Shown: one piece after another, positions 32,593 through 56,245 of the stretch
Layout of the letters: every line of letters begins with the position of its first letter
How positions within the stretch are numbered: position 1 is the first letter of the stretch
Assembly (NCBI GenBank): GCA_000690595.2
Contig: JHUT02000002.1
Span: 210,878 to 274,877, forward strand
Direction: 5' to 3'
Source of the DNA: Natrinema mahii
Lineage (GTDB): Archaea > Halobacteriota > Halobacteria > Halobacteriales > Natrialbaceae
DNA length: 64,000 nucleotides
Program-made: the position numbers and the translations under genes
The notes under the pieces: generated by a model
Told to the model about the DNA's origin: nothing
Databases searched by the model: none
Seen by the model: only the letters and a program-made list of their open reading frames with translations

Positions 32593-33249
32593 ACACGGTG
32601 TGATGTCTCCCAATCTTATTAAACGTTGTTCATATTTTCCCTATTAAATTGGCTCTAGATCGATGATGGTGATGGTGAAATGGAGATTGGTGTCAGTAAG
32701 TACTACGGCGGAATGCTACGACCAGACGGTGTGGGTATGATGAACGGCGGCACTGGCTGTTCGAGAAACGAGTGAACCACCACGAGCAACACGATCCCTC
32801 CGTAGCTGGGTTCTCGTCGACCGATCCGGCTCTTGACTGTTTACTCTCGGGTCAACCTATAGTAGCTCTTGAAAGTCACTGCACACCTGATTGCAGGACA
32901 GCGTTGTGATCGGTGTGTAAATCGTTTCAAGAGCTACTATAGGCGCTCCAACGAGACCGACCGAAACGCGGCGAACATGATTTTCCCCCTCAAATTCGGA
33001 TCGAACGTTTCCGGATTCCAAGGTGAGCGGCCGGGCGGGCGCTCAGGAGTGCGATCGAACGGTTGATCTGTTACGACGGTCACCGACGATCCGATCGAAC
33101 TCTTGGCGGACAAATTCGATCGCGAGGACACAGAACTGGACCGACTCAATGTTGTACCTTGTTCAAGCAAGATACAATATGTAGAACATAGGCCATAGAT
33201 GATGCGTTATTAGTAAACTATATATTGTAGACTCTCTGTATGTTGGACT
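32593..33249. other. Divergent promoter region with repeat and gene remnant
   Basis: This 657-bp gap holds the ALDH promoter, one 84-bp hairpin repeat (32858-32941), and further right a short open frame (about 33060-33200, plus strand). That frame reads VTDDPIELLADKFDREDTEL, then DRLNVVPCSSKIQYVEH and a stop. It has the acidic composition of a real haloarchaeal protein but no start, so it is probably a remnant. AT-rich promoter DNA precedes the transporter. Confidence 0.4.
32858..32941 (-). repeat. 84-bp hairpin repeat, copy A (intact)
   Basis: Perfect terminal inverted repeats of 17 bp: TATAGTAGC-TCT-TGAAA and TTTCA-AGA-GCTACTATA. The inner arms TGATTGCA/TGTGATC(G) are partly paired. It is in inverse orientation to all other copies. 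It lies between two divergent promoters (ALDH and NhaC). Confidence 0.9.
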
Positions 33250-36535: not shown

Positions 36536-36619
36536 TATAGTAGCTGCTGAAACGATTCACACACTGATCGCAACGCCGTCGTTCGATCAGGTGTGCAATG
36601 ACTTTCAGCGGCTACTATA
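36536..36619 (+). repeat. 84-bp hairpin repeat, copy B (intact)
   Basis: Left arm TATAGTAGC-TGC-TGAAA and right arm TTTCA-GCG-GCTACTATA pair with a single T-G wobble. Inner arms CTGATCGCA and a matching (T)TCGATCAG-type arm face the loop. It lies 29 nt after the aminotransferase stop. Its terminal TATA is shared with decayed copy B2. Confidence 0.9.
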
Positions 36620-36699
36620 GTTCTCGAAACGGATCGCACACCGATCGCACCGCTGTCCTGCGATCGGGCGTGCAGTGACTGTCAAGACCGCCTCGAGTA
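36616..36699 (+). repeat. 84-bp hairpin repeat, decayed copy B2
   Basis: It begins at the TATA that also ends copy B. The central part (GATCGCACACCGATCGCAC, then CGATCGGGCGTGCAGTGACT) is well conserved. The outer arms have drifted (TTCTCGAAAC; GTCAAGACCGCC), so it can no longer fold like the others. It seems older than copy B, or to have lost function. Confidence 0.7.
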
Positions 36700-46407: not shown

Positions 46408-46491
46408 CACCGTAGCCACGGCAACGTCTCACAGACTGATCGCGACGCTGTCGTGCGGGCAGGTGTGCAATGACGTTCAGTGCCCGGTCTA
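46408..46491 (+). repeat. 84-bp hairpin repeat, decayed copy C
   Basis: Only partial identity with the family: GTAGCCACGGCAACGTCTC at the left, ACTGATCGCGACGCTGTCGT in the middle, and GGTGTGCAATGACGTTCAG at the right. The TATA ends are lost. It lies 97 nt after the FKBP stop and between converging genes. Confidence 0.65.
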
Positions 46492-47381: not shown

Positions 47382-47465
47382 TATAGTAGCCGTTGAAACG
47401 ATTTACACGCTGGTCGCAACGATATCGTGCGATCAGGTGTACAATGACTTTCAGCGGCTACTATA
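47382..47465 (+). repeat. 84-bp hairpin repeat, copy D (intact)
   Basis: Left arm TATAGTAGC-CGT-TGAAA and right arm TTTCA-GCG-GCTACTATA pair with one T-G wobble. The inner arms GGTCGCA/TGCGATC are mostly paired. Its right end abuts the transposase fragment. Confidence 0.9.
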
Positions 47466-47550: not shown

Positions 47551-47634
47551 TATAGTAGCTCTTGAAATGATTTACACACCGATCACAACGCTGTCCTGCG
47601 ATCGGGTATGCAGTGACTTTCAAGAGCTACTATC
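47551..47634 (+). repeat. 84-bp hairpin repeat, copy E (intact)
   Basis: Arms TATAGTAGC-TCT-TGAAA and TTTCA-AGA-GCTACTATC pair except for the last base. The spacer resembles copy A in inverse orientation (GATTTACACACCGATCACAAC). It is separated from copy D by only 85 bp. Confidence 0.9.
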
Positions 47635-48920: not shown

Positions 48921-49004
48921 TATAGTAGCAATTGAAACGATTTACACACTGATCGCAATGCCCTCGTGCGATCAGGTGTAAAATGACTTTCAGTTGCCAC
49001 TATA
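48921..49004 (+). repeat. 84-bp hairpin repeat, copy F, supplies a stop codon
   Basis: Left arm TATAGTAGC-AAT-TGAAA; right arm TTTCA-GTT-GCCACTATA: pairing has one T-G wobble and one A-C mismatch. Its right end encodes the last four residues and stop of the Tat protein gene that ends at 48990. Confidence 0.9.
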
Positions 49005-50174
49005 GTCCGCCCCGATGACGTTGTACGACATGCCGAAGCCCTTGTCGAGGGGGTTGCTTGTATCGGTGAAGTTTATCGTGATCGCCCCGGGAAGCGACAG
49101 GTTAGCCAAGTCAACCGCCATTCGGATACCGAACGCGTATGTGTCACCCTCGATCAGTTCCGTGGTGAATTCGTAATCAGTATACGGGGCGTCGTCACCT
49201 GGCCCCGCACCGTCCCCTGGTCCCCACTGCTCGTCGATGATGTCGACGGCGTCATACCAATCCGAGCTTAGCGTCCCGAGATGGATCGAATCCTGTGTGT
49301 CCTTGTCGACGTTCCTGACGAACCCGAGGAAGTCCGTCCCGGCGGCCATCCCGAGGCTGGAAACCGTCCCTGCAGTATACCCATCAAACGTGATGTCGAA
49401 ATTACCTGTCTTCATATCATTGTCGACCAACGTGTAGACTTCTGCGTAGGCATCCGCCTCGATAGAGACGGCAGCGTCAGTCACCGTAACACCACACCGA
49501 TTGTCGTCTTCGTCGACATCAGTTGCCCAGTTGATCCCTTGCACCCAACAGGGTCCGGGACAGTCTTGATCACTGTCGCCGTCATCGGCCTCGGTGGCAG
49601 AGTAATCGTAGTGGGAAGACGCGGTACTCAGAGTGGACTTCTTCGATAGGTCCGCAACTTGGTTTTGGCTGGGATTGGCGGAGGCAGCGAAGTCGGCGTC
49701 TCTCTCCGAGTGAGCGACGACCTTTTCCCGTTGGTTCTGCTTGAGGGACCCCACGTCGTCAGACGAGAGGATGGTCTTGAACCGCTGGTCATTAATTTTC
49801 TTGAGGAACGTGCTGCCGTCGCGGTCCATCGCTGTCGTGACCTCGGCCGTATATCCGTCCTCGAACTCCAATCGTTGGATCATCATCGACCGACCGTCGT
49901 CTCGGTTCGCCTTTGCCACCGACGCTAAGCGCTTGCTTGAGTGCGCTACGTTAGTCGGTCCAATCGCGGCATACTCAGTGTCGACGACCTCGCCATGTCG
50001 ACGCACGGTCGACTGCCACGCCTTCCGGACCTCTTCATTGATGTCATCAATCTCTAGCCGCTGCTCGCCCTCTGCCGTATCACCGGCAACCAGACCAATA
50101 CCCAACTGCGCAGTTGCTCCGAGACCGATCGTTCGTAATGCGGTACGGCGTTTCAAACGAGGGGTATCAGACAT
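48990..50174 (-). CDS. Tat-exported protein ending inside a repeat
   Basis: A 394-residue protein with Tat signal (KRRTALRTIGLGATAQLGIG). An N-terminal helical, charged region is followed by a beta-rich domain from about residue 200 with cysteines in QDCPGPCWVQGINW and NRCGVTVTD, so it is disulfide-linked outside the cell. The C terminus is D-Y-S-G-N, where the last four codons (TAT AGT GGC AAC) and the TGA come from repeat copy F. Therefore the natural end was replaced. An AT-rich promoter lies at 50199-50210. Function unknown. Confidence 0.75.
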   Translation of the reverse strand: MSDTPRLKRRTALRTIGLGATAQLGIGLVAGDTAEGEQRLEIDDINEEVRKAWQSTVRRHGEVVDTEYAAIGPTNVAHSSKRLASVAKANRDDGRSMMIQRLEFEDGYTAEVTTAMDRDGSTFLKKINDQRFKTILSSDDVGSLKQNQREKVVAHSERDADFAASANPSQNQVADLSKKSTLSTASSHYDYSATEADDGDSDQDCPGPCWVQGINWATDVDEDDNRCGVTVTDAAVSIEADAYAEVYTLVDNDMKTGNFDITFDGYTAGTVSSLGMAAGTDFLGFVRNVDKDTQDSIHLGTLSSDWYDAVDIIDEQWGPGDGAGPGDDAPYTDYEFTTELIEGDTYAFGIRMAVDLANLSLPGAITINFTDTSNPLDKGFGMSYNVIGADYSGN

Positions 50175-55129: not shown

Positions 55130-55233
55130 TGCGGGTCGGTTGACGGTCGGTTCGCGCAAGGCCGTGGTGCTTGCGGGTGCTTGCGGCCGATTCGAGCGCG
55201 TGACCCGGCCGCCGTCACCGCCCTCGAGCGAGT

Positions 55234-55317
55234 TATAGTAGCCACTGAAACGATTCACACACTGATCGCACCGCTGTCGTACGATCAGGTGTGCAATGAC
55301 TTTCAGTGGCTACTATA
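55234..55317 (+). repeat. 84-bp hairpin repeat, copy G, supplies a stop codon
   Basis: Perfect arms TATAGTAGC-CAC-TGAAA and TTTCA-GTG-GCTACTATA, inner arms CTGATCGCA/TACGATCAG with one wobble. Its right end gives the last codons and stop of the crotonase gene ending at 55303. It lies between the 5' end of the PRC-barrel gene and the 3' end of the crotonase gene, both read on the minus strand. Confidence 0.92.
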
Positions 55318-56076
55318 GAACTCCGGCTCCCGATCCTCGAGGAGGGCGGCGACACCCTCCTCGTGGGCCTCGGACGTCCGGGCCTGGGACTGGAGCAGGT
55401 TCTCGTAGTCCAGCGCGTCGTCCCAGGAGCGCCCGAGGTTCTCGTGCATGGCCTGTTTCATCAGCCCGATCGTCTCCGTCGGGCCGGCCGCGAGCGCATC
55501 GACGGTCTCGGCGACGCGGTCGTCCAGTTCGTCGGCCGGCACCGCCTCGTTGACCAGCTCGAGGTCGGCCGCGCGCTCGGCATCGAAGAACTCGCCCGTA
55601 AACGCGAGTTGCTTCGCGGCCCGCAGGCCGACGATGCGGGGTAACATAACGGTGCCGCCGGTGTCGGGGACGAGCCCGACCCTGACGAACGCACAGGAAA
55701 AGGTCGCGTCGGCGGCCGCGTAGGCGATGTCCGAAAGCGCGACGATCGACAGTCCCGCGCCGATGGCGTCGCCGTTTACCTTCGCGACGATCGGCACTCG
55801 GCACTCGAGCATCGCCTCGACGGCGCGGCCGAAGCTCGCGGTGACTTCCTCGTAGGCGTCCCGTGAGGTGTCGGGCGTCTCCGCCAGCATCTCGAGGTCG
55901 CCGCCGGCGCTGAACGCCTCGCCCGCGCCTGTGAGGACGATCGCGTCGTACTCCTCGGGGGTCGCGGCTTCGATCTCGTCGGCCAGTTCGACGGCCGTCT
56001 CTCCAGTGATCGCGTTGAGCGCGTCCGGTCGGTCGAACGTGAGTCGCAACACGCCGTCATCGTCAGTGATTCGCAT
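55303..56076 (-). CDS. Enoyl-CoA hydratase/isomerase (crotonase) family
   Basis: A 257-residue crotonase, probably a fatty-acid or CoA-thioester hydratase/isomerase. Oxyanion loops are AFSAGGDLEML and KVNGDAIGAGLSIVAL. The general-acid/base helix sequence VRVGLVPDTGGTVMLPRIVG carries the position of the catalytic Glu, here replaced by Asp/Thr (VPDTGG), so isomerase activity may apply. ATG 56076 is the family-like start. The last codons TAT AGT AGC CAC and TGA come from repeat copy G, so a few native C-terminal residues were replaced without loss of length. Confidence 0.9.
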   Translation of the reverse strand: MRITDDDGVLRLTFDRPDALNAITGETAVELADEIEAATPEEYDAIVLTGAGEAFSAGGDLEMLAETPDTSRDAYEEVTASFGRAVEAMLECRVPIVAKVNGDAIGAGLSIVALSDIAYAAADATFSCAFVRVGLVPDTGGTVMLPRIVGLRAAKQLAFTGEFFDAERAADLELVNEAVPADELDDRVAETVDALAAGPTETIGLMKQAMHENLGRSWDDALDYENLLQSQARTSEAHEEGVAALLEDREPEFYSSH

Positions 56077-56245
56077 GCGCCACACATGGGCCCCCCGGAT
56101 AGTAACTGTGGGCGGTTCGCGGTCGTGCGACGTCGGTCGAAGCGCGGATCGGTGGTCGCACTCGCGGGCGACGCTCGACGGACGATCCAGCCACTGGTGG
56201 TGATCAAACGCATCGAGTCGGCGGGAGGACGCGGTCGGAGCGGCG

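Follow-up and report, generated by a model that had tools for sequence, protein, structure and literature searches.

In this work, we analysed a stretch of 64,000 nucleotides of Natrinema mahii DNA (the window), in which the last codons of a crotonase gene come from a short mobile repeat that lies within the stop codon of this gene. The repeat is very likely a non-autonomous MITE that is mobilised in the IS630 manner at TA and especially CTAG sites, with insertions in coding sequences being selected against and insertions in stop codons being tolerated, where they leave a TGA in a fixed phase. The element itself, its TA duplication, its preference for CTAG, the emptiness of the stop-codon sites in relatives and the constant phase are all directly observed.

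The repeat copy that concerns the crotonase, termed copy G, lies exactly where the original prediction had placed it, and its 84 bases form a near-perfect hairpin (TATAGTAGCCACTGAAA...TTTCAGTGGCTACTATA, -44 to -50 kcal/mol). Read on the minus strand, the protein terminates in ...EDREPEF-YSSH*, and the predicted final codons TAT AGT AGC CAC TGA are confirmed by both coordinates and translation: the stop (55305-55303) is inside the right arm of copy G, and the last 15 bases, or five codons, are made up of the duplicated TA and of repeat arm sequence. In G042 and G006, the two closest relatives, which at this locus are about 90% identical to the source genome, the orthologous genes are free of the repeat and end GAG TTC TAA, followed by CTC or CCC, while the gene of a third relative (G004), also without the repeat at this place, ends GAG TTC TAG. 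The filled site thus reads GAGTTC-TA[80 nt]TA-ACTC, versus GAGTTC-TA-ACTC or GAGTTC-TA-ACCC in G042 and G006. Removing the repeat and one TA restores the sequence of the relatives exactly, and therefore the element inserted into the TA of an already existing crotonase stop codon. In the remaining members of the genus, the crotonase ends EF-E* (GAG or GAA, then TAA, TAG or TGA). We also observed, in the spacer 3' of the crotonase (55132-55302), repeated GCAAGCACC motifs close before the next gene, which are conserved across the genus, unlike the rest of the spacer.

The consensus of the element is 80 nt long (TAGTAGC-NNN-TGAAA...TTTCA-NNN-GCTACTA), has no coding capacity and carries terminal inverted repeats in the form of 17-nt perfect end arms. 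It is short, non-coding and dispersed, and empty sites confirm its TA duplication, which are the features that define a MITE. A search of the 3.79-Mb genome with a covariance model based on 33 copies detected 126-127 distinct copies, when about 9 matches to one arm pattern would be expected by chance. Eight copies are identical within the source genome, so the MITE has moved recently. The repeat is also present in other Natrialbaceae. A strict pattern located copies in 15 of the 25 genomes searched within the genus and in no genome among 16 sampled from other families, and a scan of 84,980 species returned the pattern in Natrinema (8 named species), Natronolimnohabitans, Natronosalvus, Natronorubrum, Natrarchaeobius, Halostagnicola, Haloterrigena and Halomicrobium. 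An Rfam search gave no match except a tRNA. The original view of the repeat as a mobile element is supported by its copies, its TA duplication and its empty sites.

The family also comprises some unusual forms. Tandem dimers, in which two copies abut head to tail, are present in the source genome (G000:C4:183169-183332 and G000:C6:94602-94765) and at three loci of Natrinema thermotolerans (L271, L278 and L293); they have an 80-nt period with no bases between the copies, or short spacers, and simple TA insertion does not predict them. A longer subfamily is represented by three copies that contain about 41 nt of additional internal sequence, closely similar among them and with a small hairpin of its own (CGGTTC..GAACCG). 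The copies in the window are listed in Table 1 together with variant copies from elsewhere in the genome.

Table 1. Positions of the MITE copies and associated genes in the window, and of variant copies elsewhere in the source genome (G000)
Feature	Position	Strand	Remarks
MITE copy, TCT/AGA arm subfamily, intergenic	32858..32941	-	absent from orthologous region of G042 and G006
MITE copy adjoining a degenerate second copy	36536..36619	+	site empty (CCTCTAGTAGCC) in G042
Degenerate MITE copy, ends not intact	36619..36690	+	in tandem with copy 36536..36619
Old degenerate MITE copy	46408..46491	+	absent in G004, G006 and G042
MITE copy, CGT/GCG arms, intergenic	47382..47465	+
MITE copy, TCT/AGA arms, intergenic	47551..47634	+
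MITE copy F	48921..49004	+	within stop of ORF 48990-50174; GAC TAA TAA once emptied
ORF without Pfam hit	48990..50174	-	now ends YSGN* within copy F
MITE copy G	55234..55317	+	80-nt element (55236-55315) with duplicated TA on either side; near-perfect hairpin; within crotonase stop codon
Crotonase (enoyl-CoA hydratase/isomerase)	55303..56085	-	Pfam PF00378, 2.8e-49
Copies with internal insertion of about 41 nt	G000:C1:242102-242226, C1:802319-802443, C14:63877-64001
Copies with inverted-complement outer 4-mers	G000:C3:104623, C1:677961, C1:662220, C1:179537, C5:82954

The target of the element could be defined by comparing relatives, and the duplication at empty sites is the 2-bp TA. This TA is mostly found within CTAG, which makes up 76 of the 122 target sites in the source genome, versus 1.7% of its TA sites, and 57 of the 81 target sites in other species, versus 2.0%; beyond the C and G beside TA, no strong target preference was seen. 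Of the two targets first proposed, TA or TATA, the former stands and the latter does not, as TATA is the terminal TA of the element plus the duplicated TA. Indeed, a 4-bp TATA duplication, suggested by tandem copies that share TATA, is ruled out both by the TA empty sites and by the outer 4-mers, which vary in an inverted and not in a direct manner (TATC..GATA). This variation of the outermost 4-mers as inverted complements (also GATA..TATC and CGTA..TACG) keeps the end pairing even at the insertion boundary.

The fixed reading phase follows from this target, because TA forms positions 1-2 of TAA and TAG, and the interrupted gene then reads TAT AGT AGC NNN TGA. An insertion in a stop codon thereby adds four residues (XSSX) before the TGA, and the phase and the length of the tail are the same in both orientations because the element is palindromic. 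The gene that ends in copy F, which is unrelated to the crotonase, shares this phase as predicted (TAT AGT GGC AAC TGA versus TAT AGT AGC CAC TGA). Its empty site was sought in G042, G006 and G004, and the gene region is absent from all three. The proposal that the element acts as a mobile stop codon holds in that the element supplies the final stop; it does not, however, close a gene that was open at its end, but replaces an existing TAA or TAG with its own TGA four codons further on.

Two such genes say little about the behaviour of the element in general, and the comparison of copies with stop codons against TA-site expectation, which had been proposed as a check, was run genome-wide. All 122 insertion sites, with tandem copies merged, were emptied of the element in silico, and genes were called over about 463 kb, in stretches around the copies; a first gene finder, which gave 34% intergenic, was replaced for this by a self-trained, home-made three-class codon model. 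It was found that 27 insertions (22%) are exactly in a TAA or TAG stop, 10 are in coding sequence and 85 are intergenic, versus 6.5, 52 and 63 expected from TA sites matched for flanking bases, these expected values being approximate because of the gene model. Enrichment in stop codons is therefore real. If coding hits are considered as purged, the expectation for stops rises to 10.4; it is 7.5 when only genes of at least 100 aa are retained (20 observed) and 5.9 for genes of at least 150 aa (15 observed, P=0.001). In 26 of the 27 cases, the insertion gives exactly four extra residues (YSSH, YSSR, YSSS, DSSR...), and the orientation is unbiased (14:13). A multi-junction search in three relatives, taken with the loci found earlier, made 15 of these insertions testable, and the element-free relative has TAA or TAG at the same TA in 14 of them, the exception being C9:105363, which has TGG, not a stop, in G004. 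In other species (80 loci), 12 of 81 insertions are in stops, versus 5.3 expected from matched sites or 8.4 after purging of coding hits (P=0.13).

These numbers allow one to weigh other readings of the pattern. That two genes merely happened to enter the repeat in the same phase has a negligible probability: the agreement of the two phases, originally offered as evidence, is weak by itself, as it would arise about one time in three, but the census repeats the phase in 27 cases, and the relatives carry native stops at the same TA. The hairpin anatomy and the high copy number could also evoke a REP/IS200-type palindromic repeat whose single-stranded form is moved by a Y1 transposase. The hairpins of IS200/605 elements are subterminal, and these elements are not known to make a target duplication. 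The clean 2-bp TA duplication seen at empty sites and the inverted repeats at the very ends contradict such an origin, which is extremely unlikely. A further reading is that the element actively seeks stop codons or gene 3' ends, for instance through a host factor, beyond its preference for TA and CTAG. In the source genome, the significant excess of stop insertions over the purged expectation, which persists in genes of at least 150 aa, argues in its favor, but this excess is not significant in other species, the majority of the copies are intergenic, and errors of the gene finder in the background could explain part of it; we thus regard active seeking as unlikely. The predicted preference for gene 3' ends is therefore retained as an enrichment, though most copies are elsewhere, and CTAG preference together with purging accounts for most of the pattern, an extra preference being unproven.

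The hairpin raises another possibility, which is that the element is a domesticated 3'-end device, a hairpin plus a stop, kept because it terminates or stabilises transcripts. Across subfamilies, changes in one arm, at positions 10-12 (NNN) and in the inner stem, are matched by compensating changes in the other arm, and the NNN are complementary in 112 of 180 arms, versus 28 by shuffling, whereas the IS ends described below differ from each other at these positions in every copy listed. Pairing is thus maintained in the MITE, whether by selection on the folded strand or by arm-to-arm correction. A bias of wobble pairs between strands (220 G-T on the plus strand versus 103 on the minus) was discarded as proof of an RNA role, since it is dominated by few subfamily-level changes. 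In addition to its strong hairpin and its compensated stem, a domesticated device has in its favor the number of copies between convergent genes (26 versus 12.5 expected) and the fact that hairpins can end transcripts in Haloferax, where one tested hairpin gave 59% (PMC7237163). Intergenic terminators of Haloferax are, however, T stretches, with T5C reaching 95% (PMC7237163), and T runs in the MITE copies do not exceed 4 (the maximum is 2 or 3 in 121 copies and 4 in 5 copies), so that the roughly 5-T tract of a terminator 3' end is lacking. Moreover, the numbers of copies between divergent genes (21) and between tandem genes (33) are near expectation, the stop insertions have no orientation bias, and recent identical copies sit at unrelated places. 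Altogether, domestication seems distinctly improbable, any role as a terminator is hypothetical, and a MITE tolerated where it does little harm remains the preferred explanation.

Concerning the origin of the movement, the element inserts at TA with a 2-bp duplication, as is typical of IS630/Tc1-mariner elements, and its ends are related to those of an autonomous IS630-type IS of the host clade. This IS (1055 bp, PF13358) is found in the genus, with two copies in the source genome; its ends, located at C[TA]G sites, read TATAGTARNCRTTAGAA. Past the first 9 nt, the right arm of the MITE (TAGTAGCCACTGAAAGTCATTGCACAC) shares 15 of 20 positions with an IS end (TAGTAGCCATTAGAAGTAATTGCTCAC), a score reached by 0 of 200,000 shuffles, while the likeness of the left arm to the other IS end is weaker (10/20). 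The two differ in that the IS has TTAGAA where the MITE has CTGAAA; no exact parent IS with CTGAAA ends was found among the PF13358 loci examined, and G006 and G004 have many MITE copies, yet no PF13358 match. Judging from these sequence features, the MITE is very probably moved in trans by a transposase of the IS630/Tc1-mariner family. As a separate observation, at L042 (G000:C2, at the start of the contig; slippery run near L042:542) and L043 (G000:C9) the coding region of the IS630-type transposase is divided between two frames that overlap, the overlap containing AAAAAAAG, and the same second ORF of roughly 178 aa recurs in many other IS copies of the genus, which suggests programmed frameshifting or transcriptional slippage.

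In the phase set by insertion into TAA or TAG, the fifth codon is a stop in both the IS and the MITE, namely TAG or TAA (TTAGAA/TTAAAA) in the former and TGA in the latter. It is conceivable, though less likely than not, that stop codons are safe harbours to which the terminal repeat has become adapted, selection on the element having linked the preference for CTAG targets to a back-up stop that lies in phase in each arm. Any insertion in a CTAG stop would then mend itself with a four-residue tail. The in-phase stop is kept in 27 of 27 gene-facing arms versus 191 of 217 other arms, a difference that is suggestive only (P=0.09).

The mechanism that we favor is then as follows. An IS630/Tc1-mariner-family transposase would act in trans to insert the element at TA, preferably within CTAG, and duplicate the TA. 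The genome is GC-rich, and TA, above all CTAG, is scarce within genes but present in TAA and TAG stops. Selection would remove insertions inside genes, and spacers and stop codons would tolerate them. At a stop codon, the result is always TAT AGT AGC NNN TGA in the same phase, with a protein that gains XSSX and ends at the TGA built into either arm. Such an insertion would be nearly harmless and leave an element-encoded stop, because only four residues are gained before this TGA.

This explains exactly how genes that are unrelated to one another come to end, time and again, in codons of a mobile repeat: as CTAG contains TAG and the arms carry an in-phase stop, an insertion swaps one stop for another and adds four residues. 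It offers a countable example of a transposon that uses stop codons as low-damage sites, and calls for caution with Natrialbaceae proteins whose C-termini read ...YSSH or ...YSSR, as these may be repeat-derived. The roughly 126 copies, together with the empty alleles of relatives, enable tests of 3' ends, termination and C-terminal tails.

The family appears to be undescribed in the searchable literature, where a search for stop-codon-targeting IS630 MITEs found nothing direct, and it is comparable to RUP and Correia elements. RUP of pneumococcus is a hairpin repeat of about 100 nt, present in more than 100 copies, with ends like those of IS630-Spn1 and causing target duplications (PMC3049150). 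The Natrinema MITE resembles it in being a short hairpin repeat with more than 100 copies, ends resembling an IS630-family IS and a target duplication, but differs in its sequence, its archaeal host, its quantified CTAG preference and its replacement of stop codons in a fixed phase. Correia elements have a TATAG.. end at a TA target. These elements, or NEMIS, of Neisseria are palindromic MITEs with more than 100 copies (PMC10969869); unlike the present family, they have drawn attention mainly because of promoters, IHF sites and cleavage by RNase III, and were mapped upstream of genes, not in stop codons. IS630 and ISY100, of the Tc1-mariner superfamily, insert at TA and duplicate it (PMC2170065), and IS630 prefers CTAG according to Tenzen and Ohtsubo (1991), as cited in PMC2170065. 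The MITE shares these three properties, whereas these IS are autonomous and about 1 kb long. In haloarchaea, the MITEs and SMRs of Haloquadratum walsbyi are short transposase-free repeats with terminal inverted repeats (PMC3119063), but they insert mainly into other mobile elements, and SMRs cause no duplication. Thus, the Natrinema MITE is a new family of an already known kind, and its consequence is the replacement of stop codons.
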